From Rossellomorea aquimaris (lineage in GTDB: Bacteria; Bacillota; Bacilli; Bacillales; Bacillaceae_B), in contig NZ_VTEX01000005.1 in assembly GCF_008180865.1 (NCBI RefSeq), positions 248,001 to 312,000 of the forward strand: a stretch of 64,000 nucleotides of DNA, given 5' to 3'. Below are positions 3,410-34,589 of the stretch, piece after piece (the first letter of the stretch is position 1; every line of letters begins with the position of its first letter). The translations under genes were made by a program, and so were the position numbers. Under the pieces are notes generated by a model. It saw nothing but the letters and a program-made list of their open reading frames with translations. It was not told the DNA's origin and made no database searches.

Positions 3410-3448
3410 GAAAATAAAAAGTGCCCCCCTTCATAAGAAGAGAGGCAC
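3410..3448 (-). terminator. S-box expression-platform terminator
   Basis: On the minus strand the hairpin GTGCCTCTCTTCTTATGAAG followed by GGGGGCAC is succeeded by a U-rich run. The CUCUUCU in its 5' arm can instead pair with AGAAGAG at the 3' side of the aptamer P1 stem, giving the antiterminator. This is the standard S-box OFF arrangement. Confidence 0.85.
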
Positions 3449-3466
3449 AAATATGTATATGTCCAC

Positions 3467-3575
3467 TCTTCTCATCTTTCAAGTCATATGACTTGATGGA
3501 ATTGGCACGGTATTCATAAGAACCCGTTGCCGAGGTATCGCAGGGCCAGTCCCTCCACCTCTCTGGATAAGAAGA
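3467..3575 (-). ncRNA. SAM-I riboswitch (S-box leader) of metNIQ
   Basis: The minus-strand RNA carries the S-box signature AGAGAGGUGGAGGGACUGGC, then CCUGCGAUACCUCGGCAAC. P1 is formed by UCUUCUUAUC and GAUGAGAAGA at the two ends. With SAM bound, the aptamer keeps P1 closed and the downstream terminator forms, switching off the methionine transporter operon. This matches the well-known Firmicute S-box regulon. Confidence 0.95.
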
Positions 3576-3622
3576 TATTGCTTTATTAAGTTAAAGTTAT
3601 GATGCGTTTAAGCATTAGGGTT

Positions 3623-3651
3623 ATGGTAAAGGATTTCAATTGGTTTGTCAA
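3623..3651 (-). promoter_or_regulatory. Sigma-A type promoter of the metNIQ operon
   Basis: On the minus strand a perfect -35 TTGACA is followed by a 17-bp spacer and a -10 TACCAT. This places the transcript start about 40-50 nt before the S-box aptamer. Confidence 0.7.
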
Positions 3652-4307
3652 TCCTGTTTTTGAATTAATTGTATTACGGAGGACTAATCAAATGGGGCAC
3701 TTTAACCAGTTTTCAACTAGTTGTTGAACTTTTTTACCTTTTTACTGGGATGTATATTGATGATTGACACAAAAGACCATATAAACGTTGTCCGGCTCTC
3801 CATTAATGTCCCTTTTTATTGAAGATGGATATAACTTTATTCATTCAGTTTTATGAGGGCATAGTATGTATCGTGTAAGAACTCATTATTTTCATCATTA
3901 AGTAACTAACTTTCACCGTCTTTTTCGAAGTGGAGTCCACCCATGGTTTGTTTCCAGACCTTTATATTCCACTCATATTCCTCCTTTTCACACGAATTAC
4001 ATAGGCTAAAACAACCATATAAAAAATTTCACCCTACTCGTCGCAAGATATTAATGTTGAAAAAATTAAAGGTTTTCCCCTAAATAATCTTCATTTTTCT
4101 TATTTTAGTTTCAGGCATAATACCATTCTATTCTATTGATTCTACATAGCCTAAACGTTCATTAGCTGCAGGAAAATGTAAGAAAAAATACTTGTTTTAA
4201 AGCACTTAAAAAGTTTTTGACGCTTCTCTCAACCAGTCTTGTAAATTACATTTTCACACAAAATGTTACAAATTCTGATAATATGTAGGTAAAAGGAGGT
4301 GTGAAAT
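3652..4307. other. AT-rich intergenic region, no intact gene
   Basis: This stretch between the met promoter and the TPR regulator holds no convincing gene. On the minus strand at about 3907-4010 a short open frame reads LCNSCEKEEYEWNIKVW, then KQTMGGLHFEKDGES before a stop. Its CxxC spacing is protein-like and may be a decayed zinc-ribbon fragment, but there is no start codon. The sequence just before 4308 (AAAAGGAGGTG at 4290-4300) is the ribosome site of the next gene. Confidence 0.4.
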
Positions 4308-5555
4308 ATACAAGAGTTTACTTTGGGAAGTCGAATTAAATTCGAGAGAAAAAAGCAAGAGATCCCTCAATCCGCTCTGGCCTATGGGGTATGTTCAATA
4401 TCTTATCTTAGTAAAATTGAAAACGATAAGATAAATCCGAATCCTGAAATCGTTTCTCTTATTTGCGATAAGCTAAATATACAGAACATCCAATCAGATG
4501 ATCCTAGAAAGCTAATTCCAAGATTTAGAGATGATATCGAGAGGTTATATACTGCAATAAAATATTCTGGAGAAGAAGAAGTCGTATCCTTATTCAACAG
4601 GATTGAGAAAGATTATGAATCACTTACTCTCCCTTCATTCTATCTTGTGAAGAAACTATTTTCATTAAGAATCGACTTGCTAAGGGGTCTAGTTGAAAGG
4701 TCTGAACAAACCTATTCAGAAATCCTGAATTTAACTGAATATCTCGACCCATTTTCATTTGATTTTTATCATAGGTTCTGTGGATTATATAACTACATGC
4801 TCGGAGACCTAAAACTTTCTCTCCATCACTACAAAGAAGCAGAACTATCATTGGAGAGACAGGACATCGAAGAGGTATATTACCAGATGGGCCTGGTATA
4901 TACTAAACTTGAAAATATATCTTTATCGACCTATTACACAACCATGGCTCTCTCTCGATATGAGAATATATTGAATTACAGATTATGTAAAAATTGCAAT
5001 CTTCTCCTGGCAGTAAACTATCGCAAAATGGGGGAAAACGATAAAGCTTTAGCTATGTACCAGGCCATCTTAAATGGATTAGACAATAATTCAGATGAAA
5101 AATTAAAAGCCAAAGTATTTCACAATATGGGTCTCATACATAACCAAATGGAGAAGTATATAGAAGCGGTAAAATATTATAAGAAATCTATTTCTTATAA
5201 AGGGGAGAGCGGGGACCCAAGTAATACCTTGTACCTTTTAGCTAAAACCCATTTACATCTGGATGAATACAGAGAGGCTCAGGAAATCGCTTTAGAAGGT
5301 CGTAGATATTCTTCTAATAAAGAAAACACCGAATATCTTATCAAATTTCAAGTTCTTCAATTTTTCATAGAAAAAACTGAGAAGTCCGCCGCTTTTGAGG
5401 AATACATGCAATCAACCGCTTTACCACACTTTAAAGCAAAAAAAGATCGGGCAACCGTAGTTGAGTTCACTCAATTATTAGCTGATTATTACGAAAACAA
5501 CCACAAGTACAAAAGTGCTTACCTATTACTTAAAAACCTATCAAAGGAGAAATGA
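4308..5555 (+). CDS. RRNPP-family (NprR/PlcR-like) HTH-TPR regulator, apparent ATA start
   Basis: About 415 aa. Residues 1-60 form an XRE/HTH_3 DNA-binding domain (LGSRIKFERKK, then SYLSKIENDKINPNPEIVSL). The rest is helical with repeated TPR-like units, for example YYQMGLVYTKL and KVFHNMGLIHNQMEKYIEAV. Size and layout match NprR-type receptors, whose TPRs bind an imported signal peptide. The only conventional start (TTG at 4323) lies ~22 nt from the strong AAAGGAGGTG site. An in-frame ATA at 4308, 7 nt from that site, restores the usual N-terminus (I/M)QEFTLGSR. The gene overlaps a secreted-peptide gene by 4 bp. The target genes are unknown. Confidence 0.85.
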   Translation: MQEFTLGSRIKFERKKQEIPQSALAYGVCSISYLSKIENDKINPNPEIVSLICDKLNIQNIQSDDPRKLIPRFRDDIERLYTAIKYSGEEEVVSLFNRIEKDYESLTLPSFYLVKKLFSLRIDLLRGLVERSEQTYSEILNLTEYLDPFSFDFYHRFCGLYNYMLGDLKLSLHHYKEAELSLERQDIEEVYYQMGLVYTKLENISLSTYYTTMALSRYENILNYRLCKNCNLLLAVNYRKMGENDKALAMYQAILNGLDNNSDEKLKAKVFHNMGLIHNQMEKYIEAVKYYKKSISYKGESGDPSNTLYLLAKTHLHLDEYREAQEIALEGRRYSSNKENTEYLIKFQVLQFFIEKTEKSAAFEEYMQSTALPHFKAKKDRATVVEFTQLLADYYENNHKYKSAYLLLKNLSKEK

Positions 5556-5710
5556 AAATGAAACTCAAATTAAAGTCTTTATTTATTACTACACTCTTAT
5601 TACTAGTCGGCACTACTGTTGCAACATCCACATTTGCTGACGATGAACTACCAGATCCTCGAGTGGGCGATATTAATACAATGACGGTCAACACATCTTC
5701 TTCAAAGTAA
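5552..5710 (+). CDS. Small secreted peptide precursor (Phr/NprX-like signal candidate)
   Basis: A 52-aa precursor whose ATG overlaps the regulator's TGA (ATGA), with the ribosome site AAAGGAGA inside the regulator gene. The N-terminus MKMKLKLK is followed by a hydrophobic core (LFITTLLLLVGTTVA) and a likely signal-peptidase site TFA|DD. The exported remainder is 23 residues, DDELPDPRVGD then INTMTVNTSSSK. Overlap of receptor and pro-peptide genes is the hallmark of Rap-Phr, NprR-NprX and PlcR-PapR cassettes. By analogy the peptide would be trimmed outside the cell, re-imported by an oligopeptide permease and bound by the TPR protein. The mature sequence cannot be fixed from sequence alone; it might lie at the C-terminus or at DPRVGD. 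Confidence 0.75.
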   Translation: MKMKLKLKSLFITTLLLLVGTTVATSTFADDELPDPRVGDINTMTVNTSSSK

Positions 5711-5730
5711 TCTATCGTCATAAATATTAA

Positions 5731-5770
5731 GCAACCTCCCCTAAGCCATATTAATGAGGAGGTTGCTTTT
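5731..5770 (+). terminator. Rho-independent terminator after the peptide gene
   Basis: GCAACCTCC pairs with GGAGGTTGC, followed by TTTTG. It closes the regulator-peptide transcript. Confidence 0.85.
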
Positions 5771-5950
5771 GTTCAATTCAGCCTTTATATGGAATCAAAT
5801 AATTAAACCCCTTTGATTATTAGTGGTAAGAAGTTCGTTCGAGAGCGAAAAAAAGCCTATTTGCAGTTGATTTTTCGATGCCCAATAAACATTGTTTTGA
5901 GCTGTAAGCCCTAATACAATTAAAGTGCTTATTCCCCTGAGTTACTATCA

Positions 5951-6265
5951 TTATCTTTTTTTGTTATATACAATTGCAGTAATTACATTAAGTCCTATAG
6001 TTACTATAGCTAGTAGGGATGAAAGACGGACCACACCTTTAGAAGTGTCCATAAGCGCTGACCAATCCTCTATTCTGACTAAGTAATCATTGTATAAAAT
6101 TTGAAAAATCAGGGCTACTACACAGGCACTAATACTTACTATAGAAAATATAACCCAAGTATTGTTATTTTCTTTATTGCGCTTTGCCAGACTTGCAATA
6201 GGCAATATCCATGCAATCAAACCTAACAAAAGACTACCGATATTTAAGAAACCATACATTGTCAT
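5951..6265 (-). CDS. Small integral membrane protein of unknown function
   Basis: A 104-aa protein with about three hydrophobic segments (residues ~5-25, ~35-57 and ~77-97). A lysine/asparagine-rich loop, KRNKENNN, follows the first. I do not recognise the family. It is the last gene of a leftward operon starting with a PadR regulator and a DUF2812 protein, 16 bp after the latter. It probably shares their PadR control. A membrane role linked to the DUF2812 protein is only inferred from linkage. Confidence 0.65.
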   Translation of the reverse strand: MTMYGFLNIGSLLLGLIAWILPIASLAKRNKENNNTWVIFSIVSISACVVALIFQILYNDYLVRIEDWSALMDTSKGVVRLSSLLAIVTIGLNVITAIVYNKKR

Positions 6266-6281
6266 GTCTCCTTTCTAAATT

Positions 6282-6839
6282 TTAATTTTCTTCAATTATT
6301 TTCTTAAGTTTGATAAAGCCCGATAAATACTTCGTTGAGTAAAGAGTTAGCATTAATCCTCCAAGCGATACCAGCGATACAATGAAAATGATTCCTAATG
6401 GGAAAAATCTATAATGAAACATATTTAATGCTAATACACACGAAACTAAAACGGAAATGACCGATAGCGGGATAAGTTGAACTAACTTACGTTTGATAAT
6501 CTTTCTGCACATAGCGATTTTCGTTTCTCGATCACTGAATATTTTCTCTTCGCTACACTGTAGAGCAGGTTTTGAAAAATAAAAGCTACCGTCTTTTTCA
6601 GTGATGAAGTCCCATCCAAAATCAGCAAATAATTGTACATATTCACTTTTACGCTGTTCTTTAGGATTAAAGTCAATCTGATAGGTAACAGCTTCTTTAT
6701 TGCATTCTTCAAAAAAGTATCTCTTACCTTTTATATCAGTCAATCTCCATCCTGCATCGTGTTGGGATGATAAATATTCTTGCTCCTCCTCAAAATCTGA
6801 AATATAGAAATTCTTTCTGATTGATTTCTTCTTAAGCAT
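6282..6839 (-). CDS. DUF2812 domain membrane protein
   Basis: A 185-aa protein. The first ~115 residues match the DUF2812 pattern (FYISDFEEEQEYLSSQHDAG, then GWRLT, and later FADFGWDFI). Two transmembrane segments follow (about residues 116-136 and 146-166), with a short basic tail. DUF2812 proteins are very often encoded directly after a PadR repressor in Firmicutes, as here, with 12 bp between the genes. The biochemical function is unknown; a membrane-stress or efflux-related role is often guessed but not shown. Confidence 0.8.
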   Translation of the reverse strand: MLKKKSIRKNFYISDFEEEQEYLSSQHDAGWRLTDIKGKRYFFEECNKEAVTYQIDFNPKEQRKSEYVQLFADFGWDFITEKDGSFYFSKPALQCSEEKIFSDRETKIAMCRKIIKRKLVQLIPLSVISVLVSCVLALNMFHYRFFPLGIIFIVSLVSLGGLMLTLYSTKYLSGFIKLKKIIEEN

Positions 6840-6851
6840 AATAATATCCCC

Positions 6852-7160
6852 CTATGCTCTAGTGTTTTTGTATAATCTCTCAATACGCATGATTTCTATG
6901 TCTAAGATTTCACGTCCTAAATCAGTGATTTTATAAAACTTTCGCTTGCTCTCTGTTTTCACAAAAACAATTAGTCCATCTTTTTCCATTTTGGACAAAC
7001 TAGTATAAACCGTCCCTGCACCTAAAGCTATTTCACCATCTGTAAGATCTTTCACATATTTCATGATACTATAACCATGCATTTCATTTTGCAAAGCAAA
7101 CAGAATATAAAAGCTAGTTTCTGTCATTGGCATATAAAATCTACGTATTCTTTTGTCCAA
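6852..7160 (-). CDS. PadR family transcriptional regulator
   Basis: A 102-aa short PadR repressor with winged helix (SFYILFALQNEMHGYSIMKY, then AGTVYTSLSKMEKDGLI). It is of the small PadR subtype without a long C-terminal domain. Two near-identical palindromes overlap its own consensus promoter, so it very likely represses itself and the two downstream genes. Such small PadR proteins often sense hydrophobic drugs or membrane-active compounds; the inducer here is unknown. Confidence 0.9.
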   Translation of the reverse strand: MDKRIRRFYMPMTETSFYILFALQNEMHGYSIMKYVKDLTDGEIALGAGTVYTSLSKMEKDGLIVFVKTESKRKFYKITDLGREILDIEIMRIERLYKNTRA

Positions 7161-7176
7161 TTAAACACCACCTTTT

Positions 7177-7227
7177 TATATCGTAGTATGATATAAAAAT
7201 TATATCGTACTACGATATAATTGTCAA
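7177..7227 (-). promoter_or_regulatory. PadR operon promoter with two operators
   Basis: On the minus strand a consensus promoter is present: TTGACA, 17-bp spacer, TATAAT. The spacer is filled by the perfect palindrome TATATCGTA-C-TACGATATA (7201-7219). A second, nearly identical copy, TATATCGTA-G-TATGATATA (7177-7195), lies just downstream. Their centres are 24 bp apart. The placement would block RNA polymerase directly, so these are strong candidate PadR operators. Confidence 0.8.
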
Positions 7228-7379
7228 AACCTCATTTGCGACAAAAGCTTGCTGCAAGCACTCCCACCCCAAGGTAGTAACGGACACGTTTTTTTGCTAT
7301 TACTGAAGCAGGGGAACAGCAAAAAAGTACCCACCCTAAGTTGATGTGGCGCTAATAGATTGAGTGGTCGGTATTACCA

Positions 7380-7411
7380 AAAAAGTGCTCCTATAAATAG
7401 GAACACTTTTC
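7380..7411 (-). terminator. Terminator of the secreted-protein gene
   Basis: On the minus strand AAAAGTGTTCCTAT pairs with ATAGGAGCACTTTT and runs into a T tract. It lies ~85 bp after the stop codon of the DUF2599-like gene. Confidence 0.75.
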
Positions 7412-7496
7412 TTATAGCTTTGTATAAGCCATCTACCGGGCTACCTTTCTTAAGTGAAAAAGTTGTTTTTACCAAAAACGTATTTATTACATTTAA

Positions 7497-8135
7497 TTAC
7501 TCTGGATTGCAACGTGATGTAAACATTTTCGTTCCAGAAACAATCGGTCTACCCACCTCTAAATCCCAGCTTCCTGCTACTGCACCAAAAACATCATAAT
7601 CCCAGTGGCATTTATATTGGTTCCATAGGCTTCCGTTGTCGTTGCGGATACCATAATAATTTCTTCCTAATTCATCCCAAGCAGCCTCCATTGTTGGTCC
7701 CCAAAGTCTGACGGACCACTTTGGTTCCATTGAATATGTCCAATAATCACCACGTTTATGATACCATACGTCATTAAAGTATTCGTCAAGATTTCCGCTA
7801 AGACTTGCGATTTGCACCATAGAGTTATCGCTAAGACTTGCATTTTTCACCATAGTGTTATCGCTTAAAAGACGCTTAACTACATCATTTTGCTCCTCTT
7901 CTGGAAAGGTTTCTAAATAAGCTTCCAGTCTCTCTCCAATTTCATCAATCCATTCACGGTTATCTTCTTCGTATTGAGTTCTTTCCTCAGAAGGTACAGC
8001 GTCAATTGTTGCGATTGCGTCCTTTAAGTACTCAAATTCATTCGTTTCAGTTGCTGCGGAAGCGGGAGTGAAATTGCCCAACACCATCAGTGTAGTTAAT
8101 GCGATGAAAATCATTTTTTTAAATTTGTTTTTCAT
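7497..8135 (-). CDS. Secreted DUF2599-like protein A
   Basis: A 212-aa exported protein of unknown function. I chose the ATG at 8135, preceded by GAGGAG, over an upstream in-frame ATG. A signal peptide ends near ASAATETN. An acidic helical region follows, then an ~11-residue tandem repeat (SLSDNTMVKNA-like, ~100-125). The C-terminal domain shares with its neighbour HKR..WTYSM.PK, QY.CH, WDLE.GRP and a terminal CNP. This fits my memory of DUF2599, but the assignment needs a profile search. The mature protein has exactly two cysteines (CH and CNP), ready for one disulfide, and a BdbC/BdbD pair lies nearby. Confidence 0.75.
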   Translation of the reverse strand: MKNKFKKMIFIALTTLMVLGNFTPASAATETNEFEYLKDAIATIDAVPSEERTQYEEDNREWIDEIGERLEAYLETFPEEEQNDVVKRLLSDNTMVKNASLSDNSMVQIASLSGNLDEYFNDVWYHKRGDYWTYSMEPKWSVRLWGPTMEAAWDELGRNYYGIRNDNGSLWNQYKCHWDYDVFGAVAGSWDLEVGRPIVSGTKMFTSRCNPE

Positions 8136-8281
8136 TATTGTTTCTCCTCTCATAAAAAATAATTTGTAGTTTTTCATTCAGTTTTTTAAGTTTCAATACT
8201 TTATTGCCCGTCGGTTCTTCAAAATGTTGCCTCTCTCAACCGACTCTCGCATTTAGTGGGTAAAGGGGGTTATTTCTTTTA

Positions 8282-8881
8282 TTATGGATTACACAAAGCA
8301 GCAATTGTCTTAATTAAACCTACATCTGGTCGCCCTTGTTCAATATCCCAATCTGATTCAATGAACGCTTCAAAATGGCACCAATATTGATCTTCCAAAC
8401 TATTTGTATCAATGTTTGAATAATAGTTTGTCAGTTCAGTCCATCCAGCACTAGCATAAGATCTCAACAATCTAGTAGATGTTTTTGGCCACATACTATA
8501 AGTCCACATACCATTTCTTTTGTGAAAATAATGATCGTTGAAATATTTGGAAGAGACAGCCATTGTACTAAATTGATTATCTCCATCACGTAAATTTAAC
8601 AATTCAGCTTCTTTTTCATCTTCAGGAACACTAGCCATATGAGCATCAAGTCTGTCGTTTACGTCAGCAATCCACTCTTTATTTTCTTCGTAAAAACTCT
8701 CTAGTTCATCAGGGCTTACACTTTCAATTTTTGCAATATCCTTTTCCAGTTTATCAATTTCCGTTTTCTCTTGTTTCAGTTGATCAACATTCATATTTCC
8801 TTTAGTGTTCTCAGCGGCGAAAGCAGCAGACGTACTTAGACTCATAATTGCTACAAAGAACAAAACAATTAACTTCTTCAT
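8282..8881 (-). CDS. Secreted DUF2599-like protein B (paralogue)
   Basis: A 199-aa exported protein with a Sec signal peptide (cleavage near AAFAAENT). A charged coiled-coil-like segment covers about residues 30-95. The C-terminal domain is homologous to its downstream neighbour (WTYSMWPKTSTRL, QYWCHFEAF, WDIEQGRPDVG, ALCNP). Again there are only two cysteines in the mature chain, at the same aligned positions. Tandem paralogues suggest duplication and divergence. The function is unknown; a secreted antagonistic or cell-wall protein stabilised by a disulfide is possible but not shown. Confidence 0.75.
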   Translation of the reverse strand: MKKLIVLFFVAIMSLSTSAAFAAENTKGNMNVDQLKQEKTEIDKLEKDIAKIESVSPDELESFYEENKEWIADVNDRLDAHMASVPEDEKEAELLNLRDGDNQFSTMAVSSKYFNDHYFHKRNGMWTYSMWPKTSTRLLRSYASAGWTELTNYYSNIDTNSLEDQYWCHFEAFIESDWDIEQGRPDVGLIKTIAALCNP

Positions 8882-8961
8882 CCAATTTCCCCTCTCTGTT
8901 TTTAGTTATGTACAGAATGTCGAATTTCTAAGTCCCTACATTTTTCTCACCCCTTTCAAAT

Positions 8962-9384
8962 TCACCTAAGCGGTTTGATTGATAGCAGAATGGCTATTGT
9001 CATAAACGCAATCATTGCTAAGAGCGGTATTGTAATAAAACCCCACATGTTTATGTATTCCATATTGCAAGGAACCCCATAATTGCAAGACTCTACCTTT
9101 AATCCTGGAACCTTCTGATGGAGATAATGATAGAGTGATAGGAGACTCCCTATTATAGCTATAGGCAAAACATATCTTTTAACCGCAGAATCTTTAAAAA
9201 ATGTACCTATACCCAGAATCACTATTAAAGGGTACATGAGAATACGTTGGTACCAACACAAATCACATGGGACAAACCCTCTAATTTCACTAAAATAGAG
9301 ACTTCCAAGGGTCCCGGCTATGGATACTAACCATGCAAGGTAGAGCAACCAATTCGACGATGCTTTATCCTCTATTTCTTTCAT
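8962..9384 (-). CDS. bdbC: BdbC-like disulfide bond formation protein (DsbB family)
   Basis: A 140-aa, four-helix membrane protein that re-oxidises its thioredoxin-like partner and passes electrons to quinone. The first cysteine pair is CDLC in FVPCDLCWYQRILMYP and the second is CNYGVPC, as in BdbB/BdbC. Its ATG overlaps the stop of bdbD by 4 bp (ATGA), so the pair is translationally coupled. Position next to two secreted two-cysteine proteins suggests these are substrates. General roles in competence or secretion are also possible. Confidence 0.93.
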   Translation of the reverse strand: MKEIEDKASSNWLLYLAWLVSIAGTLGSLYFSEIRGFVPCDLCWYQRILMYPLIVILGIGTFFKDSAVKRYVLPIAIIGSLLSLYHYLHQKVPGLKVESCNYGVPCNMEYINMWGFITIPLLAMIAFMTIAILLSIKPLR

Positions 9385-10061
9385 GTCCCTTCTCCGTGCC
9401 CATTGATCGCTTTTTCAATCTCTTCATAGTCAAATGGGTTTTCTAAAAGTGTTCCATTAATCATTAGAGATGGTGTTGGAGATACTCCATGCTCTTTAAT
9501 TAGCTTCTTATCCAACTCCAACTCTCTTGCGAATTCAGGCTTTTTCATATCTTCATTTAGATCCTCTATTGCAATGTCTGTGTGTTTTTTTATAAGTTCT
9601 TCTATTCCTTCTTGGTCTATTTCTCTTTCTTTTTTAATATGACGGAACAAGTTGTCATGAAACTTCCAATAGGAGCTGGGATCTCTCTTGTGTACTACCT
9701 CTGCAGCTAAAGAAGCTAGTTCCGAATCATCATGATAGAGCACATTTACGAAAGAAAATTTTGCTTTCCCTGATTTTATATAGTCTTCTTCAATCATTGG
9801 AAAGACCGTTTCATTCCACGTCTGACAAGCCGGGCAAATAAAATCTCCAAACTCTACTATCTGAACACTTACCTCCTCATCTCCAAGAGTAGGCTGGTCT
9901 TTAATTGAGTTTTCATTGAGTTCAACCTCTACCACATCTGTACTATCCTTATCTTCATTCGTGGTTGCTGTACTCGGTGTACTATTAAAATTAAAAATAA
10001 CAATGCCACAAAGGACAATTAAAAATGTTGTAATGATAACTATGAATTTATACCCTTTAAT
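9381..10061 (-). CDS. bdbD: BdbD-like membrane-anchored thiol-disulfide oxidase (DsbA family), apparent ATT start
   Basis: About 226 aa. An N-terminal anchor (KGYKFIVIITTFLIVLCGIV) is followed by a thioredoxin-fold DsbA domain with active site CPAC (GDFICPACQTWN) and the cis-proline motif SPTPS. It oxidises cysteines of exported proteins outside the membrane. No ATG, GTG or TTG exists in frame between the upstream stop and the GTG at 9935, which would delete the anchor. The ATT at 10061 stands ~8 nt after AGGGGG and gives (M)KGYKF, so it is the best start. It either initiates at a rare codon or has lost its ATG. Confidence 0.85.
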   Translation of the reverse strand: MKGYKFIVIITTFLIVLCGIVIFNFNSTPSTATTNEDKDSTDVVEVELNENSIKDQPTLGDEEVSVQIVEFGDFICPACQTWNETVFPMIEEDYIKSGKAKFSFVNVLYHDDSELASLAAEVVHKRDPSSYWKFHDNLFRHIKKEREIDQEGIEELIKKHTDIAIEDLNEDMKKPEFARELELDKKLIKEHGVSPTPSLMINGTLLENPFDYEEIEKAINGHGEGT

Positions 10062-10311
10062 AATTATTCCCCCTATATGAACAGAACCGAGTAGAGTTTA
10101 TGTTCAATTGTTTATGATTTCCAGTATTTCTTATACATTAAAACTAACAAGTAGCATAAGGAATGTATATGTATTATTGTTGAGAAAATCGAAGGTGAAT
10201 TTATAACAGAAAATTAAAAATGCCTAATGTTTTTTCAATATATATTTAGAGCAAAATGAATCACTATTATGTACAATATTAAGTCTATGGATATTTTTAA
10301 TTAAGATAAGA

Positions 10312-10351
10312 AACACAAAAAAACTTGTAGAGGTAGTCCCCCTACAAGTTT
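10312..10351 (-). terminator. Terminator of the ECF sigma/anti-sigma operon
   Basis: AAACTTGTAG pairs with CTACAAGTTT around a short loop. On the minus strand it is followed by a T run. It separates the sigma operon from bdbD. Confidence 0.85.
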
Positions 10352-10369
10352 CTAAATCTTAATTGCCTT

Positions 10370-10957
10370 TTACCGATGTATTAACTTCTTTACAGTAAAT
10401 ATTAGAATTAAAAGAACTAAGCCTACATTTACCCAACGCATATACAGCCAGAACCATCCACCAGAAGCCTGAATTACGTTTCCACCATAGTCATCTGCAT
10501 ACACACCCAGATTAAAGAATAGTTTCAAAGAAATTATTATAGAAAACAAACTTGCTATTAAAACCGTAATAAGAAACGATTTATTATTCATATTGCCCCT
10601 CACTCCTTCATTTTTAGTTCTAATCACGAAAAACAACAACGCAATACCCAATACAACTAGCGATAGCATTAGGTTAAAGAATACTAAGGAACCAATGAAA
10701 ACACCAACTAGCAAAGACAACAATATAAGGTTGTTCATTCTTCGTTTAACACCGTTCAGTAGCTGCTGATCGGATTTATCGTCAATTGAACCTGTTGATT
10801 CGTCTGTTGGCAGAACCTTTTCAATACCCTCCAAGTAATCCTGACATTCTTTACATGACTCCACATGATCCTCAATAAATTGGTTTGTTTCTTCACTTGT
10901 AAGATCCTCTTTATACATCGGAAGTAAATCTTTAACTACACTACATTTCTTACTCAA
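10370..10957 (-). CDS. Anti-sigma factor with N-terminal zinc finger (zf-HC2)
   Basis: A 195-aa membrane protein. The N-terminus has the zf-HC2 pattern C..VKDLLPMY then H..SCKEC, which in ZAS-type anti-sigma factors binds the cognate sigma. Four hydrophobic segments follow (about residues 74-90, 93-110, 125-147 and 170-190). Its ATG overlaps the stop of the upstream ECF sigma gene by 4 bp, so the two are made together. It probably holds the sigma factor at the membrane until an envelope signal arrives. Confidence 0.88.
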   Translation of the reverse strand: MSKKCSVVKDLLPMYKEDLTSEETNQFIEDHVESCKECQDYLEGIEKVLPTDESTGSIDDKSDQQLLNGVKRRMNNLILLSLLVGVFIGSLVFFNLMLSLVVLGIALLFFVIRTKNEGVRGNMNNKSFLITVLIASLFSIIISLKLFFNLGVYADDYGGNVIQASGGWFWLYMRWVNVGLVLLILIFTVKKLIHR

Positions 10958-11457
10958 GTTTCTACACCTCCATCAAGAATATTTGACAACTTACCCTTAG
11001 CCCTATAGAAGTTAACCCTTGCCCATAAATCAGTTTTATCAAAAATGTCACCGATTTCCTTAAAACTCAATTCATTATAAAAACGTAAAATCATGATTTC
11101 TTGTTGCGGTTGTTTCAGCTTTTTTATTGCATTCATTAAGCGGATAGATTCTTCTTTTTTTTCATATATTTCCTCAGGTGTTTGCTGGATAGCCAAACTC
11201 TCTTGGATAGTAGCGGGATCTATATTTCTATCGATCTTCTTATTCTTCCTCATATAAGTATAATATGTATTCTTGGCAATCTGGAATAACCAAGTAGACA
11301 CTTTGCTTTTGCCTTTAAAACGATGTATTGACTTAAATGCTTGAAAAAATGTCTCTTGGGTCAACTCTTCAGCGAGATGTTTGTTTCCAACTAAATAAAA
11401 TAAGTATTTATAAATCTGTTTTTCATGTTTATCGTATAATTGTTTAAATTCATCCAA
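10954..11457 (-). CDS. ECF-type RNA polymerase sigma factor
   Basis: About 167 aa. Region 2 (LVGNKHLAEELTQETFFQAF, then WLFQIAKNTYYTYMRK) and region 4 (QQEIMILRFYNELSFKEIGD) are complete, with no region 1 or 3, as in group 4 sigmas. I start it at TTG 11457, 8 nt after a perfect AAAGGAGG site; a longer reading frame upstream lacks a ribosome site. It is co-transcribed with its anti-sigma factor. An inverted pair GTAAC/GTTAC lies at about 11490-11515. The regulon is unknown; the adjacent secreted-protein/disulfide cluster is a candidate. Confidence 0.9.
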   Translation of the reverse strand: MDEFKQLYDKHEKQIYKYLFYLVGNKHLAEELTQETFFQAFKSIHRFKGKSKVSTWLFQIAKNTYYTYMRKNKKIDRNIDPATIQESLAIQQTPEEIYEKKEESIRLMNAIKKLKQPQQEIMILRFYNELSFKEIGDIFDKTDLWARVNFYRAKGKLSNILDGGVET

Positions 11458-11734
11458 TAATGTACCTCCTTTCAGTGCTGTCATATGTTTAGTAACTTCA
11501 AAAAGAAAAACGTTACACATTTATGAAAATTATTAAAAACCCAAAGAATTTACAATTCCGTTTAAGGAGAGAATACCTTATCATACCCAAATTAGCATCA
11601 GGAATAGCAGTGTGAATAACACTGTATTTAACAGTAATAACCCAGGCCAATATGACTCTGGGTTTTTACGTTTTTATTAACTTCTTATTCTGTTAAAGTC
11701 CCCTTTAGTTGAAGATTGACTCTATGTATAAGCA

Positions 11735-12517
11735 TCACTTACCTATAAACGCATAGACTTGAAAACTAGAATTAGTAATAAAACCTACTTTTTCGTAAAT
11801 AAGTTTGCCAGCTTCAGTTGCGTGTAAAATACAATCTGAAGCACCTTGTTGGGAAGCGATTTGCAATATACTTTTTAGATAGTTCGTTGCCAGTCCCTTT
11901 CTCCGCATATTATGGGCAGTGGTTATACAATACAAACCTGCAATCCCATCATTCATAAACAAAGATCCTACCACTGCTGGTTTGTTATTAAAGTAACCTA
12001 TATATAAGTGATAATGATCCTGGTCACTGTTCATAATTTGCTTATACCGATTATAAAGTGCACTTTTATAAGCAATTGGTTTTTGGTACCCTTCTACATA
12101 AACATCAATCCACTCTTTTAATTCAGTTTCAGAATTAACTCGTTTGATATCAAAACCTAAACGTTTTTCGTTTTTTGACTTAGTGCGATTTACACTTAAA
12201 CCCATCCCAGTCCATTCTTGGTAAAGGTTAAAATTCTCCTCTAAGAAAGATTTATCTGTGTCTGAGAGTTTAGTAGAAGGACCTATAATCCACAATAGAG
12301 GTTCACCTTCGTTGTGTAGTAGCTTTTTCAATTCACTTTCTTCTATTTCAAGTTGATTTGCGTATAACACACGATTATAGGGGTTCGCTGAAACATGTTT
12401 AAAATAGTCAGAATCAATACTTTTACTCCCTTGAGTGCTTTTAAAAATCATCCAATGCTTAATTAAATGCTCTTCAGTAAATTTTGCTATGTATTCTTCT
12501 TGAGATTTAACAGTCAT
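11735..12517 (-). CDS. GNAT family N-acetyltransferase
   Basis: A 260-aa protein with a poorly conserved N-terminal half and a C-terminal GNAT fold. The acetyl-CoA binding segment is ITTAHNMRRKGLATNYLKS, and the last strands (GASDCILHATEAGKLIYEKV) are typical. The substrate is unknown. It stands alone with ~200 bp on one side and ~800 bp of decayed sequence on the other. Its codon usage is AT-richer than the core genes, in keeping with an accessory region. Confidence 0.85.
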   Translation of the reverse strand: MTVKSQEEYIAKFTEEHLIKHWMIFKSTQGSKSIDSDYFKHVSANPYNRVLYANQLEIEESELKKLLHNEGEPLLWIIGPSTKLSDTDKSFLEENFNLYQEWTGMGLSVNRTKSKNEKRLGFDIKRVNSETELKEWIDVYVEGYQKPIAYKSALYNRYKQIMNSDQDHYHLYIGYFNNKPAVVGSLFMNDGIAGLYCITTAHNMRRKGLATNYLKSILQIASQQGASDCILHATEAGKLIYEKVGFITNSSFQVYAFIGK

Positions 12518-12843
12518 TTATATCCCTCCATATTGAAGAAGTTACCTGATACTCATAATTCCAACAAGCAAAGTTTGTTGCTTTGCCTGACGCATTCCAT
12601 TATAGAAAAAGCATATCACCTCTAAGTTTGAAAATATAATGAACTTGATTGTTGAGTTCTTCAATTAAACTGCCCGTTAATTTAATACCAATTATTTCAA
12701 AATATTTTAAATTAAACAATCTCCTTATTCAAATAACTGTCCCTTTAACGGAATAATCATCAAATAAATAACACCGCCTCCGTCCATTCTCTAAGAAGCC
12801 GTGACATTTTATTCCGTTAACACCCCATCAAATCACCGGCCCC
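12518..12843. other. Intergenic region without a visible gene
   Basis: AT-rich sequence upstream of the GNAT gene. I see no coding frame with a ribosome site, no clear hairpin terminator and no mobile-element ends here. It borders the wreck of a nucleoside deoxyribosyltransferase gene. Confidence 0.5.
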
Positions 12844-13138
12844 TCATACGGAGCTTTCGGTATCCGGTGAAAATTGTATGTCGCCAGTTCCGCTGTCCAC
12901 ATACTTGCCTTCGTAATCGCGGATACCCAACACTACATCCGAACGCCTTAAATGCCTCAGGTCATTGCGGAATACTTTCCGCCTTCATTCTTTGATCCAA
13001 ATTCAAGATGTCCGAATTGATGAAATCGTGCGGAGAAGATTTCTGACACATACGGATTCGTATGAGGGATTGTTCAAGTCTTTGTACCCGATCAACTTGT
13101 TCCTCACTGAAGAAGGGACTTGCAATGAATACTCTCAT
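12844..13138 (-). pseudogene. Decayed nucleoside 2-deoxyribosyltransferase-like gene
   Basis: Translating the minus strand from the ATG at 13138 gives MRVFIASPFFSEEQVDRVQR, then LEQSLIR. A few frame changes later, another frame gives FRNDLRHLRRSDVVLGIRDY followed by EGKYVDSGT. The pieces match the two ends of the PF05014 fold: an N-terminal FIASPFFS strand and the D-x-E-x-x-x-VDSGT motif holding active-site residues. At least two frameshifts and a premature stop break the gene, and its C-terminal third is missing. It is therefore a remnant; an intact copy would act in nucleoside salvage. Confidence 0.65.
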
Positions 13139-13219
13139 GTTTCTGATGCCTTTTTAAATAGTAATGCTGAGTTAAGCGGAATTTTTCCGTGTATCTGTCA
13201 GCTCTGGTAAGTAAGCGCC

Positions 13220-13275
13220 ACGGGGACAGGCACCACAGCTCCTATTCAAAGAGCCAATGGACCTGTCCCCGCGTC
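13220..13275. repeat. Imperfect inverted repeat of the GGGGACAGG type
   Basis: CGGGGACAGG at the left pairs with CCTGTCCCCG at the right. Hairpins of this sort recur in Bacillus intergenic DNA. Related GGGGACGGTTC hairpins occur at about 33336 and 34590 of this window. Confidence 0.6.
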
Positions 13276-13324
13276 TGAAGGAATAGTAATGCCAAAGAAT
13301 GCAGTTACTATTCCTCTTGGAAAA

Positions 13325-14251
13325 TCACTTAAAAGAATTCAGTACAACCTTGGCCGCCTTTGCTATAAGTTCATTATGATAGGTGGCGTTCTCAGTATCA
13401 CGGCTGGATAGAATCGTGATGATGATGGGATCTCTATTCGGCGGCCAGACGATAGCGATATCGTTTCGCGTTCCGTAGCCTCCCGCTCCGGTTTTATCGC
13501 CTGCCTCCCATCCTTTAGGTACAGACGCACGGATCAGTTCATCTCCAGTAGTATTCCCCTTCATCCAATCTGTCAGGATTGTACGCTTATCAATCGGGAG
13601 CACGTCGTCGACCGTGAAAGCCTTCAGGTTAATGGCTAGTGCTCTTGCTGTACTGGTATCACGGATGTCTCCTGGGATGGCACTGTTCAAATCCGTCTCA
13701 AAGCGATCAGCCTCGGTGACATGATCGCCGATTTGCCTCAGTGCATTTTCGAAGCCGTCAGGTCCGCCGATTTCCTCTAATAGAAGGTTCCCTGCGGTAT
13801 TATCGCTGTACCGGATAGCCGCATCGCAAATTTCTCTAAGGGTCATCCCGGTATCCACGTGTTGCTCAGTAATTGGGGAATACGTGACGAGGTCATCTTT
13901 GGTGTAGGTGATGACCTCGTCAAGTTCTTCAATTGAGTTTTGCTGTAGTACTGCCCCTGCAGCCAAAGCCTTAAAGGTGGATGAGTACGCGAACCGTTCA
14001 TCAGGTCGATAGACCACCGTGCGATTTGTACCGGTGTCAATAGCATAGACGCCGAGCCGGGCATCAAACTTTTTCTCGAGTTGCATGAACTTATGAGCAG
14101 TCCCATGACTTGTACCTTGTGATTGTTCTCCTTTTTCTTTTGCCTCCGTCTGCTTTAATCCGTTTCCAAAGAGGCTTAGACTGATAAGACTTAGAACGAA
14201 TAGACCAACACACATCCGAATTATTAACATTCTGACACTTTTCAACATCAT
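13325..14251 (-). CDS. Class A beta-lactamase
   Basis: About 308 aa, exported by an N-terminal signal peptide (hydrophobic core [20 protein letters not shown]). All class A landmarks are present: the serine motif STFK, the SDN loop (YSDNTAGN), the omega-loop Glu in ETDLN and KTG ([13 protein letters not shown]). It should hydrolyse penicillins; its spectrum cannot be read. I start it at ATG 14251 after GAGGGG. No blaI or blaR1 is adjacent. Instead the promoter region holds two copies of AGTCTAATTAGACT shared with a divergent esterase/PadR operon, so control by that PadR protein is plausible. Confidence 0.93.
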
Positions 14252-14270
14252 CAGTCCCCTCATAGTATAT

Positions 14271-14318
14271 TGACAATAGTCTAATTAGACTCTATACTAG
14301 CTTAGTCTAATTAGACTA
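14271..14318. promoter_or_regulatory. Divergent promoter region with duplicated palindromic operator
   Basis: A perfect 14-bp palindrome, AGTCTAATTAGACT, occurs twice (14279-14292 and 14305-14318), with centres 26 bp apart. The first copy fills the spacer of a plus-strand promoter: TTGACA at 14271, 17 bp, TATACT at 14294. The second copy lies where the bla promoter would be. It is a likely operator for the PadR regulator encoded downstream on the plus strand. Confidence 0.7.
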
Positions 14319-14341
14319 TTGTGTAAAGGAATGAAACTGTA

Positions 14342-15184
14342 ATGATAAAATCTTTTTTAATGGTAGGACAATCGAATATGGCCGGTCGTGGATTCTTGCA
14401 TGAGGTAGAACCGATCTATAATGAAAAAATAAAGATGCTTCGGAACGGACAGTGGCAAATGATGACTGAGCCAATTAATTATGACCGTCCTGTGGCTGGT
14501 GTTAGTCTGGCAGCCTCTTTTGCCGACCTGTGTTCGAAAGCCAACCCGGATGATGAAATTGGATTGATTCCTTGTGCGGAAGGTGGCAGTTCTTTGAATG
14601 ATTGGCACCCGCAAGATACTCTTTTTCAACATGCTTTGTCAGAAGGCCGCTTTGCTCTTGAAACCAGTGAAATTTGTGGCATCCTTTGGCATCAAGGTGA
14701 GAGTGACAGCCATCAATCTCTACATGAGACGTATTATGAAAAGTTATCTCTTATCATTGAAACGTTACGTAACGAATTAAACCTTCAAGATGTCCCACTA
14801 ATCATTGGTGAGCTTGGTCATTTCTTAGGGAAAGAAGGTTTCGGAAAGTACTCATCAGAGTTTCAAAAAATCAACGAAGAATTACGTCGGTTTGCACATG
14901 AGCAGCCAAATTGTTATTTTGTATCGGCAGAAGGTCTAACTGCCAATCAGGATGGTATTCATTTGAATGCCGTTTCCCAACGCAAATTCGGTTTTCGCTA
15001 CTTCGAGGCATTTTCGAAAAAGTGTCATATCTCAGGGCCTCTTGCAGATGAAAATCAATCACTAAAGACAAACCATACCTATTCAAAAAATGAACAAATC
15101 TATATTCACAGTATGAATTTGGCTCTGGGCAAAATCACATACTCTGAATTTGAAGCACAGATGGCGAAGGTAATGCACCCTTGA
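14342..15184 (+). CDS. SGNH/SASA family carbohydrate or sialate O-acetylesterase-like hydrolase
   Basis: A 280-aa cytoplasmic protein with no signal peptide. The nucleophile block is LMVGQSNMAGRG, followed by CAEGGSSL, WHQGESD and the catalytic DGIHLN near residue 205. These fit the SASA (sialate O-acetylesterase, CE6-like) branch of the SGNH hydrolases, which remove acetyl groups from sugars. The true substrate is unknown. The last ~60 residues are an unusual extension. Its TGA overlaps the TTG of the PadR gene by 4 bp, so the two are coupled, and it diverges from a beta-lactamase gene. Confidence 0.85.
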   Translation: MIKSFLMVGQSNMAGRGFLHEVEPIYNEKIKMLRNGQWQMMTEPINYDRPVAGVSLAASFADLCSKANPDDEIGLIPCAEGGSSLNDWHPQDTLFQHALSEGRFALETSEICGILWHQGESDSHQSLHETYYEKLSLIIETLRNELNLQDVPLIIGELGHFLGKEGFGKYSSEFQKINEELRRFAHEQPNCYFVSAEGLTANQDGIHLNAVSQRKFGFRYFEAFSKKCHISGPLADENQSLKTNHTYSKNEQIYIHSMNLALGKITYSEFEAQMAKVMHP

Positions 15185-15720
15185 TTCCCTTACTTATCCT
15201 TGGCTTACTTATTCAAAACCCCGGCGCTCATGGATACGAACTATTAAGTTTAATGGAAAAACGCCATTACAAATATATCGTAAACTATACAAAAGGATCA
15301 TTTTATTACAATTTGCAACAACTTGAAGAGAAAGGGTTCATTGAAGAAACACATCAAGTACGTCCAAACAACAATCGTGATATTCATACCTTTAAGATCA
15401 CGTCTTTAGGAAAAGAAGAATTTGATAAATTAATGGCCAAATACGGAACGAAATCCGAGTATGTAAACTTACCAGTATATGGGGCAATACTCTTTGCAGA
15501 TGTATTCGATCAAAACAAATTAGTAGCATTAATCCAATCCCAAATTGATCAAACTGAAGCAAGAATTGCTCTCCTCGATGATTATTTAGCTACCATTGAG
15601 GAATTACCTGGTGAAATTGATTATTTTCGTCGCATGAACGAAAATTCCCGTTCTCACCATTTAGTGAACTTAAAATGGTTTAAAGAATTGAAGGCAGATA
15701 TAGAAGAAAGTACTGATTAA
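15181..15720 (+). CDS. PadR family transcriptional regulator with C-terminal helical domain
   Basis: A 179-aa protein of the long PadR type. The winged helix is at residues 1-85 (NPGAHGYELLSLMEKRHY, then FYYNLQQLEEKGFI). A Vir_act_alpha_C-like helical domain follows, used for dimerisation. Translation begins at TTG inside the esterase stop codon. It is the only regulator encoded at this locus, so it probably binds the twin AGTCTAATTAGACT sites and controls itself, the esterase and perhaps the beta-lactamase. The ligand is unknown. Confidence 0.88.
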   Translation: MIPLLILGLLIQNPGAHGYELLSLMEKRHYKYIVNYTKGSFYYNLQQLEEKGFIEETHQVRPNNNRDIHTFKITSLGKEEFDKLMAKYGTKSEYVNLPVYGAILFADVFDQNKLVALIQSQIDQTEARIALLDDYLATIEELPGEIDYFRRMNENSRSHHLVNLKWFKELKADIEESTD

Positions 15721-15731
15721 ATAAAACTAAA

Positions 15732-15759
15732 ATCACCTGTCCAAAAATCGACAGGTGAT
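15732..15759 (+). terminator. Terminator after the PadR gene
   Basis: ATCACCTGTC pairs with GACAGGTGAT, loop CAAAAATC. The following sequence, CTTAAT, is only weakly T-rich. Confidence 0.65.
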
Positions 15760-15845
15760 CTTAATAACCAGCGGGAACCGAACCGTCCCTCTGCATTATT
15801 TTATTAAATAGGCGATTGCTTAATATGATCAGCATGACATTCGTT

Positions 15846-16291
15846 TTAGCCCTTAAAAAGTTGCTCATTCATTACCCTAATTGAATAGATGTTTTCTTCT
15901 AATAAGTTATTAATTATTTGTTTTAGTACATGCGGTTCTCGTAAATCCTCTTTTTCAAATGCTAAAAGGTCATTTGTTTTTATCCATCTGCTGTCTGTAA
16001 TTACATCTTCTTCAAGATGTAAGATACCTCCAGTAACCTCACCAATAAAATGACTTGATTGTTCGTATTACTAATAAAATTATATCCCCCTGTCGTGCCA
16101 ATCAGTTTTACATCTAAACCCGTTTCCTCTTTGGCTTCCCTCCTAGCTGAATAAAGAATATCCTCTCCATACTCTATATGCCCACTCGGAAAGTTCCACT
16201 TATGGATGGCATTGGGTTCATTTTCTTTTAACATTAAGACTTTATCATGATTAAAAATTGATATACTTGCCAGTATAACGGAATACTCAAA
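15846..16291 (-). pseudogene. NUDIX hydrolase gene broken by a 1-nt frameshift
   Basis: The N-terminal half carries an intact Nudix box (GHIEYGEDILYSA, then RREAKEETGL). After SNTNNQ the frame runs to an early stop. A shift of one base continues as SHFIGEVTGGILHLEED and on to a natural C-terminus ending QLFKG. One missing A near 16055 would explain it. No clear start codon is seen: the 5' end abuts the truncated serine hydrolase fragment, so a deletion may have joined them. An intact enzyme would hydrolyse a nucleoside-diphosphate-linked compound. Confidence 0.75.
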
Positions 16292-16301
16292 TTTAAGATA
16301 T

Positions 16302-16645
16302 TCAATATAAACTTACTGTGGATTCGTTAGTAAATCCGAGTATTTGGTATGAACCTTTGGGTACTTGATGACCTATCTCTGTCTTTGTAGCCGGTAAATC
16401 CTTAACCAACCACAAGAATCCATTTTGAAGTAAGTCTTTATGAATAGTCAATGGACTTTGAAGAGAAGTTGCCATATCTATGATTTCTCTAGGAACAATT
16501 TGCTTTTCGTTTATTTTTCCTTTATTCAAATGGAGATAACCCCAGTATGCTAACTCTCTGGTTGATAAATACATATTCATTTTGTCACCTTCAATGCTAT
16601 CACTAGTCCTCCAATCTTCATCCCCTTCATATAAGTTTCTTTGTT
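16302..16645 (-). pseudogene. C-terminal fragment of a beta-lactamase-related serine hydrolase
   Basis: The frame reads MYLSTRELAYWGYLHLNKGK, later HQVPKGSYQILGF. This is typical of the C-terminal part of serine hydrolases of the beta-lactamase/DD-peptidase superfamily. The upstream part (DEDWRTSDSIEGDK) is in frame but lacks the SxxK half, and the chain stops before the last strands. Both ends are gone, so it is a remnant. Just upstream, at 16627-16722, another frame encodes ~31 residues (VGYTLFKPTGVKSHF) of unknown origin. Confidence 0.7.
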
Positions 16646-16765
16646 AAATCGACCTTAGTAAAATGGCTCTTCACACCTGTTGGTTTAAATAAGGTATATC
16701 CTACATTTACATCCTTCTTCACAATACATACCCCATTGAAATATTTTTTTACCAGGCTATGATGT

Positions 16766-18037
16766 TCAAATTCCTTTCAAAGCATCCTTATACCGCTGAT
16801 AATACGCTTCCACATTATTCAACAACAACAACTCCGTATACAAATATACCTTCATATTAAAGTCATTAAAATCAATCGTAGTCAGTTCCTGTATCTTTTT
16901 GATCCGATAATTCAACGTGTTCGGATGGATGAACAGTTCATTAGCGGTCTGTTTACCCTTTCCGTCATTTGCCAGGTACACCTCAAGTGTCTTAAGAAGG
17001 TCTGTCTGTTTCTTCACATCATTCTTAATCAATACCAACAAGTCATCACTGTAATAGTCCTTTGATGTGTTTTTCTCATAGAGCGTTGGCAAGTATCGAT
17101 AAATGCCCAATTGAGCAAATTCCCGCGGCATCGATTCAGGACGCGGACTGATAAAATTAGCCGTCTCAATGACTTCTGACGCTTCCAAGAAGCTCTTTCT
17201 CATTTGAGATAACGTGGTGTATTCCTTTCCGACCCCGATCAGGAAATGGTAGAATTCTTCCTCGCCTGTTTGCTCCTTCACTTTTTCAACTAGATCTCTG
17301 GCTAATTCCAGGGAAGAAGACGGTGTATCTGCTTTGCCGTAGAGAACGAGGATCACCTGGTATTCCGTTCGTAGTGAATAAATCTTTGTGTTGAAGCTGG
17401 ATTCCTGGACCAGCTTCTCCAATTGGTCGAGCATAGGCTTATAGTCCGACGATGCGATCGAGTACACCGCTACCGTGAACCGTCCAGGCAGGGTCAACTT
17501 AACGAGTGATGCATCATGGCGGAGCTGGCTTTCACTTCCGTACTCGTGCTGTAGGAGATGCCACAGTACTTCTTCTTTTCTGTCCTTTTTGATATTGACC
17601 TTTGCGAACATATCATTGATCAGGTTTCCAAGATGAGCGGAGATTTCTTCAAGGAAAGCGAGCTCTTCATTTTCGAGAAGACGGTTGGATTCCTGAACCC
17701 AAATATACCCCATCGTGTTTCCCAAGTACTTGGCGGCAATGACGACGCGCTGGTGAAATCCTAACTCTTCCATCGCCTGTACCCGGATCGGATCCGTATG
17801 TTTCTCGAGCTGATGGACGATGCCCTCTTTTTTCAGTCGATCGATGATGAAGACCGGACATTTTTTCGTGAGGATTGTCTTTAGCTGTGTTTGATCGAAC
17901 TTATTAGAAGAGGAACTGTATGAAATCAGTTCGAAATTTTTGTTTTCAATGATGACGGGATTGCCCAATTTTGAGCTGATCAATTCCGTTGCTTTATGAA
18001 TATCTTCTGTTTGGAGGATGATATCAAGTGCTTCCAT
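16766..18037 (-). CDS. putR: PucR/CdaR-type regulator, probable proline-utilisation activator PutR
   Basis: A 423-aa protein. It has an N-terminal sensory region, a central GGDEF-like CdaR segment and a C-terminal HTH_30 helix-turn-helix (ELFIHPNTLNYRIKKIQELT). This is the layout of B. subtilis PutR, which activates putBCP with proline as inducer. It lies directly downstream of the proline dehydrogenase and P5C dehydrogenase genes on the same strand, separated by a terminator. Identity rests on architecture and neighbourhood. Confidence 0.85.
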   Translation of the reverse strand: MEALDIILQTEDIHKATELISSKLGNPVIIENKNFELISYSSSSNKFDQTQLKTILTKKCPVFIIDRLKKEGIVHQLEKHTDPIRVQAMEELGFHQRVVIAAKYLGNTMGYIWVQESNRLLENEELAFLEEISAHLGNLINDMFAKVNIKKDRKEEVLWHLLQHEYGSESQLRHDASLVKLTLPGRFTVAVYSIASSDYKPMLDQLEKLVQESSFNTKIYSLRTEYQVILVLYGKADTPSSSLELARDLVEKVKEQTGEEEFYHFLIGVGKEYTTLSQMRKSFLEASEVIETANFISPRPESMPREFAQLGIYRYLPTLYEKNTSKDYYSDDLLVLIKNDVKKQTDLLKTLEVYLANDGKGKQTANELFIHPNTLNYRIKKIQELTTIDFNDFNMKVYLYTELLLLNNVEAYYQRYKDALKGI

Positions 18038-18103
18038 AGGAATCTTACCTTTCCACGAGTGTTTGTGATTCCTATTATAGCGTTAAATCCCTCAATAAAA
18101 AAT

Positions 18104-18134
18104 GAAAAGCTCCCCCATGTCGGGAGAGCTTTTC
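18104..18134. terminator. Terminator between pruA and putR
   Basis: GAAAAGCTCCC pairs with GGGAGAGCTTTTC; A-rich and T-rich flanks allow function in the minus direction after the dehydrogenase gene. Confidence 0.75.
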
Positions 18135-18143
18135 GTGTTCGAT

Positions 18144-19775: not shown

Positions 19776-19814
19776 TCTCTTCACATTCCTTTCTGATTAC
19801 ATTCTGTCTGGATG

Positions 19815-30552: not shown

Positions 30553-30598
30553 CAAAAAAAGCCCCCTGAAAAAGGTGGTCTTTATGACCTCCTTCGCT
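30553..30598 (-). terminator. Riboswitch-controlled terminator of the kdp operon
   Basis: On the minus strand AAGC...GGAGGTC and GACCACC...GCTT form a hairpin followed by seven Ts, directly after the aptamer. Ligand binding is expected to favour it. Confidence 0.8.
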
Positions 30599-34437: not shown

Positions 34438-34589
34438 CGGTTGCGCTAGTTGCTCCCCGATTATCCAAGCGCCCACATACAGATAACCATTCATCGCATC
34501 TAAATTAATATATTTAATATATCGACACATTCAAAAATATATTTAGACTACAAATAGGTGAAGAAATAGATGATGGTAATTATGGATAC

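Follow-up and report, generated by a model that had tools for sequence, protein, structure and literature searches.

A probable quorum-sensing cassette of the broad NprR type in Rossellomorea aquimaris and a proline core common to many NprR-like propeptides

Background

Cassettes of the RRNPPA quorum-sensing type join a receptor built of tetratricopeptide repeats (TPR) to an adjacent small gene with a Sec-type signal sequence. In NprR of the Bacillus cereus group, peptide binding is described as converting a dimer that inhibits sporulation via Spo0F into a DNA-binding tetramer, with R126, W167, H201, N306 and D309 contacting the peptide and D107, Y118, E188 and Y223 contacting Spo0F (PMC4970707); the NprX signal, SKPDIVG, was identified by mass spectrometry (PMC5641580). 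NprR-type propeptides have been called excessively divergent, a propeptide being reported for 40% of NprR and repeats in 17 of 17 unusually large ones, and the same source lists Rap as a receptor without a helix-turn-helix (HTH) domain (PMC9765709). PlcR is placed among the five-TPR folds (PMC12700828), and plasmids of Priestia koreensis FS-1 are recorded as carrying NprR-NprX systems (PMC10075063). Here we analyze a 64,000-nucleotide stretch of the Rossellomorea aquimaris genome (contig NZ_VTEX01000005.1, positions 248,001 to 312,000), hereafter the window, which holds near one end a receptor gene and a propeptide gene that very probably constitute a quorum-sensing cassette of RRNPPA type, NprR-like in the broad sense, whose predicted signal carries a proline core common to many NprR-like propeptides.

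The cassette and its receptor

The elements of the cassette, in window coordinates, are the following.

4293..4299, plus strand: Shine-Dalgarno sequence AAGGAGG of the receptor gene
4308..5555, plus strand: receptor gene, NprR-like, with an HTH and nine TPR-like helix pairs; 415 amino acids (aa) from ATA 4308 or 410 aa from TTG 4323
5558..5710, plus strand: propeptide gene, 50 aa (52 aa if started at ATG 5552)
5729..5768, plus strand: intrinsic terminator of the cassette, a hairpin followed by TTTTGTT

A sequence-only reading of this DNA had proposed an HTH-TPR gene directly followed by a small open reading frame (ORF) with a signal-like N-terminus and then by a terminator, and this order is what the DNA contains, the terminator hairpin (-17.6 kcal/mol, z -4.37) being equalled by one of 200 shuffles. 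The proposed assignment to an RRNPP-type cassette with an NprR-like regulator is likewise borne out by its domains and predicted fold, by the gene order and by its relatives. At its N-terminus the receptor has an HTH_3 domain (Pfam, E 2.6e-7), and TPR_12 is matched at 2.1e-13. The predicted model contains nine helix pairs, which gives the receptor the HTH plus nine-TPR architecture of NprR, and NprR is its closest counterpart both by sequence and by predicted fold; the fold match spans residues 65-415, with the HTH supported by Pfam and by the model. Rap proteins are also among the best fold matches, and domains, sequence and predicted fold agree in placing the protein among the TPR receptors of the RRNPPA fold. 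No NCBIfam family exceeded its cut-off for either the receptor or the propeptide. In a midpoint-rooted tree of 94 chosen rows, where NprR is represented by a fragment covering the TPR part only, NprR groups with L079 and L081 (100/99) and the window receptor falls in a separate clade of 11 rows (100/99); on this placement the window receptor is NprR-like, yet not a strict NprR.

The start codons of both genes require comment. Codon 4308, at 8 nt from AAGGAGG the best-spaced start of the receptor gene, is an ATA, and the sole common in-frame start codon near it, TTG 4323, lies 23 nt behind the Shine-Dalgarno sequence; judged from these features, either may be the start. A protein with 65% identity to the receptor (P0002) has Ile where the window has ATA, preceded by VREINELTSG.. 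and an annotated upstream GTG start. ATA 4308 may be a non-standard, weak start; the few relatives compared at the DNA level use ATG or TTG. For the propeptide, the 52-aa frame said to overlap the receptor gene does so in the DNA, where ATG 5552 shares ATGA with the receptor TGA just 2 nt behind GGAG, but the translated arrangement probably differs, because ATG 5558 is better spaced (8 nt to GGAG) and the 50-aa form that it encodes is the protein-database entry P0052.

The propeptide and the shared proline core

The small gene has a Sec-type signal sequence by hydropathy and by a scripted, simple (-3,-1) rule, used in place of SignalP. The predicted signal peptide ends in ...STFA, leaving DDELPDPRVGDINTMTVNTSSSK as the exported part, which holds a single core; the proline of this core comes four residues after the predicted cleavage site of signal peptidase.

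5639..5668, plus strand: predicted pheromone-bearing region DDELPDPRVG, located by the shared core motif, with approximate ends
DDELPDPRVGDINTM: candidate pheromone-bearing stretch of the window propeptide

The core emerges from 174 receptor loci (44 and 27 from genome searches, 100 by region and three plasmid records), which are best matches, partly redundant and not a random draw; they include near-identical loci (e.g. L026, L028 and L173), three loci that probably belong to another family (L011-L013) and one place counted twice (L043 = L072). By a rule that asks for a hydrophobic N-terminus and a ribosome site, a secreted-type small ORF stands behind the receptor at 136 of the 174 loci, versus 50 of 1740 random antisense anchors; ORF and core pattern together are found at 116 loci and at one anchor. 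As a control the anchors are lenient, because the end of any gene is more likely than an antisense position to be followed by another gene. The exported parts often share a core of the form [DE]-x-[HYLF]-P-[DEP]. The pattern actually tested (an acidic residue, 0-2 residues, [HYFLVWN], P, [DEPKRQSI]) was chosen on the first data set, in which 54 of 66 non-redundant exported tails contain it, compared to 13.5 ± 3.0 in 500 shuffles. Fixed beforehand and applied to 23 newly fetched loci, 19 of them with an ORF, the same pattern occurs in 14 of the 19 tails, compared to 3.05 on average and at most 9 over 2000 shuffles; these 19 tails are not independent, two being identical and several equal to or resembling peptides of the first set. 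A broader expression, which has no shuffle control of its own, recognizes the core in 68 of 80 non-redundant tails, once in 43 and repeatedly in 25. The commonest letters of the 68 cores are E/D at -3 and -2 and H/Y/L/F at -1 in front of the P, which is followed by D in 26 and next by P (31) or I (13).

In many relatives (e.g. L058, L067 and L117) the propeptide repeats the core unit, and this repetition marks the core as the pheromone-bearing part. By this comparison, the window pheromone likely lies around DDELPDPRV. The sequence-only reading had left the signal unassigned and allowed that its type may be new, a view that we do not uphold: because DDELPDPRVG fits the core common to many NprR-like propeptides, and has P-D as in NprX SKPDIVG, the signal is, as far as peptide comparison goes, a new spelling of that core. 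Narrow literature searches on NprR/NprX pheromones found no statement of a shared proline core.

Comparison with known systems

NprR-NprX and the window cassette have in common the HTH plus nine-TPR fold, the downstream propeptide and P-D in the signal. They differ in that the window receptor belongs to a separate clade and, by a weak alignment, mostly does not keep the residues that contact Spo0F and NprX. The signals differ as well: NprX has S-S-K before the proline, where the window has acidic residues and Leu; the window continues as L-P-D-P, as opposed to P-D then I in SKPDIVG; and within its exported part the window core stands toward the N-terminus, unlike in NprX. One locus on a plasmid of Priestia koreensis FS-1 (L172), which we take to be one of the described NprR-NprX systems (PMC10075063), likewise consists of an HTH regulator followed by a hypothetical 42-aa ORF that ends in SEEEFPEPTVAQVLI and has the same core type, but its receptor is 25.8% identical and pairs in the tree with L003, a paralogue from the genome of the window, rather than with the window gene. 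Rap-Phr systems share the TPR fold and the secreted downstream propeptide, whereas Rap has no DNA-binding domain and the window receptor has HTH_3. PlcR-PapR shares HTH, TPR and a secreted peptide, but has five TPRs compared to the nine helix pairs of the window model. PapR7 is given as ADLPFEF, also acid-Leu-Pro, which we treat as a resemblance to the window core.

Alternative explanations

A comparison of the TPR pocket with that of NprR, suggested by the sequence-only reading, gives a divided result: the predicted fold agrees, and the contact residues mostly differ. The 4gpk chain numbering was set by matching the named NprR contact residues; at ~20% identity single positions may be misplaced, and two alignments were made. 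In both, N306 and D309 of NprR align with D and N of the window receptor; N275 corresponds to window N273, an Asn in 48 of 49 relatives, and R121, by count the equivalent of NprR R120, hardly varies among relatives. Of the Spo0F contacts, D107, Y118 and Y223 are matched to L, S and L in both alignments, and for E188 the two disagree (E or I), so that, at this level of identity, the Spo0F-contact residues do not look conserved. These substitutions speak against an alternative in which the peptide-free receptor is a Rap/NprR-like, Spo0F-binding phosphatase that restrains sporulation until the peptide relieves it. The presence of Rap proteins among the best fold matches, and the two activities described for NprR (PMC4970707), favor such a role, but we regard it as unlikely; the window receptor is probably of the same kind as NprR, with another pocket and without Spo0F activity.

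Phr and PapR signals are usually C-terminal in their propeptides, and by that precedent the window pheromone would be the propeptide C-terminus (..TVNTSSSK) rather than the DELPDP core. The core does lie near the C-terminus in several relatives, but it is the P core that relatives share and that the repeated unit of tandem propeptides contains, and no counterpart of the last window residues was noticed in them, which makes a C-terminal signal very improbable. A third possibility is that the cassette is a decaying accessory element whose receptor has lost its normal start and is poorly made, or not at all. The ATA at the best-spaced position, the distance of the TTG from the Shine-Dalgarno sequence and the upstream GTG given for P0002 can be read in this way; the receptor frame, however, is open throughout, the propeptide keeps an intact core and signal-like N-terminus as well as a Shine-Dalgarno sequence of its own, and the protein cluster of the receptor has eight members, so decay appears distinctly unlikely.

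Several observations weigh against the reading that we prefer, a functional cassette of broad NprR type with a proline-core pheromone. NprR R126, essential for peptide binding, aligns in both alignments with G127 of the window receptor, and at the positions of W167 and H201, the two residues stacking on the lysine of NprX, both alignments give L168 and K200, indicating that the pocket differs. The NprX-type x-P-D occurs in 30 of 66 tails, compared to 18.6 ± 3.3 in shuffles, a modest likeness to NprX. Five of the 19 new tails miss the fixed pattern, although two of these, with ENNPGIR repeats (L160) and TYPRPL (L152), resemble core variants. By the rule, 38 of the 174 loci have no small ORF, seven paralogues from the same genome among them; the nearest receptors, P0002-P0004 (59-65% identity), lie outside the locus survey; and the 52-aa ORF, used as query in a protein search of a kind that needs shared 5-residue words, retrieved its own cluster only. 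It had been asked whether the receptor might belong to a family without peptide partners or the small ORF might lack conservation in relatives: the former does not hold in general, given the 136 loci with a partner, and conservation of the ORF itself is seen in its own cluster only, with P0002-P0004 outside the survey. The earlier remark was that no obvious target operon is adjacent, and neither an operator nor a target was found in searches of the window and of upstream regions.

Distribution and paralogues

A protein search at E <= 1e-3 returned 51 proteins including the window's own, three of them at 59-65% identity, and the receptor's protein cluster (P0001) comprises eight member sequences. 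Within the genus, two of 36 genomes match at E <= 1e-45 (its own and one at 30% identity) and 34 of 36 at E <= 1e-30, mostly via a distinct paralogue that is 27-31% identical; in the order, 216 of 397 sampled genomes match at 1e-18, and a class-wide search of 398 genomes at E <= 1e-52 returned the window gene only. The genome itself yields 12 matches at E <= 0.01, of which ten are full-length receptors including the window gene. Two of the nine paralogues (L002 and L003) have a downstream propeptide, ending in EEEFPPYSGKL and SEEEFPDPTIIKVLS, respectively; L004-L010 have none by the rule, and with the ribosome site waived, unconvincing ORFs appear behind four of these seven. L004, L006, L007, L009 and L010 form a loose receptor cluster on contig C11 of the same genome, at about 251-303 kb and 506 kb, and together with L005 and L008 they make up a single tree branch.

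The receptor is matched by 97 plasmid records, with identities of at most 28% among the matches listed. One of the surveyed records, a 690-kb linear "plasmid" deposited as Cytobacillus spongiae (L173, NZ_CP089998.1), shares 4.2 kb at 99.7-99.8% identity with loci from two genomes in the window's genus, and either its species assignment or its replicon type may call for verification. A link to phages was considered and dropped, with no match in phage records and no relative in viral contigs; a scan of genome contigs gave one TPR stretch in a Bacteroidetes genome, which was set aside.

Genomic context

The cassette lies in an accessory block, whose main features are listed here.

3743..16765: accessory block with the cassette in it, flanked by metNIQ (with an S-adenosylmethionine (SAM) riboswitch) and a PutR-like gene
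7497-8881: neighboring genes for two DUF2599 proteins that have signal-like N-termini and are 41% identical
8962-9935: DsbB/DsbA-like genes, adjoining the DUF2599 pair
13325-14263, minus strand: beta-lactamase gene (Beta-lactamase2, 2.3e-37)

MetN is matched at 1e-150 in 18 of the 36 genus genomes including its own, and the other 17 were compared with the window over stretches of 1.5 kb (less in incomplete loci) and, in four of them, of 18.5-19.5 kb. Behind metN, similarity to the window ends at 3413-3823 in the 17 relatives (at 3660-3774 in 15); the end at 3413 reflects an incomplete locus, and the other 16 end at 3660-3823. In L177 similarity returns about 0.5 kb later, at 16766, where a gene lies that from its neighbors we take to be PutR-like. 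Three of the four longer stretches have 16766-20888 close by but separated by other DNA, which makes the site a variable one. Within 3760-16760, the relatives' stretches show no matches beyond pieces of 48-62 bp. Further block genes code for a DUF2812 protein, PadR regulators, a sigma factor of the extracytoplasmic function type with a zf-HC2 protein, a GNAT protein and an SASA esterase. Each DUF2599 protein has two Cys in its conserved end; DUF2599 is matched in two of the 36 genomes at 1e-5, one match being weak, and the DsbA-like protein in one of 36 at 1e-60. The shared absence of block genes fits a joint gain and is no proof of regulation. Elsewhere in the window, riboswitches are found on the minus strand for SAM (3469-3573, in front of metNIQ), cyclic di-AMP (30586-30728) and cyclic di-GMP (class II, 34426-34510), together with a T-box leader (39907-40162).

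Upstream region

Two sites upstream of the receptor gene may be relevant to its expression.

4240..4250, plus strand: possible operator TGTAAATTACA, just upstream of the -35-like box, unproven
4253..4282, plus strand: promoter-like site TTCACA, 18 nt, GATAAT (consensus scan, 10/12)

The scan yielded 19 promoter-like sites compared to 22.4 in shuffles, which makes the receptor promoter only suggestive. TGTAANTTACA as an operator has three window matches with at most one mismatch, versus 2.1 expected, and an inverted-repeat search of 4150-4325 returned one overlapping 9-nt palindrome of no use. The dyad TATT-N5-AATA stands upstream of 16 of 97 non-redundant receptor genes, compared to 3.0 expected from shuffles; it was rejected as the window operator, the window having no such dyad and the count being inflated by related loci. 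Upstream of the core paralogue in the genus (L002, L015-L042), TAATTAtaGGAaTATTc forms a conserved block and is a possible operator or promoter.

Proposed mechanism and implications

If the cassette works as its composition suggests, Sec would export the propeptide and signal peptidase would cut after ...STFA, leaving DDELPDPR... as the new N-terminus, from which extracellular proteases would trim a short pheromone around DDELPDPRV. Re-import by the oligopeptide permease (Opp) would be possible, the genome encoding eight Opp-type binding proteins. Binding of the pheromone to the concave face of the TPR superhelix would then alter the oligomeric state of the receptor and its DNA binding, with the cassette's own genes as probable targets, along with others inside or outside the accessory block. 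A bolder proposal, unlikely when all its elements are taken together, assigns the window receptor to a distinct RRNPPA branch. Such a receptor would serve purely to switch transcription and have no Spo0F activity, would be translated at low level from an AUA start, would recognize a pheromone of the type acidic-(Leu/Tyr)-Pro-(Asp/Glu)-Pro with its N-terminus fixed directly by signal peptidase, and would control secreted, disulfide-bonded DUF2599 proteins and the DsbA/DsbB pair that belongs to them, all encoded in the block that holds the cassette.

For the organism, the cassette would be one more accessory signaling module; the by-product of its analysis is a core common to many NprR-like propeptides. 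For cassettes with divergent propeptides, the shared core predicts from sequence where the pheromone may lie, and it provides defined peptides for synthesis.
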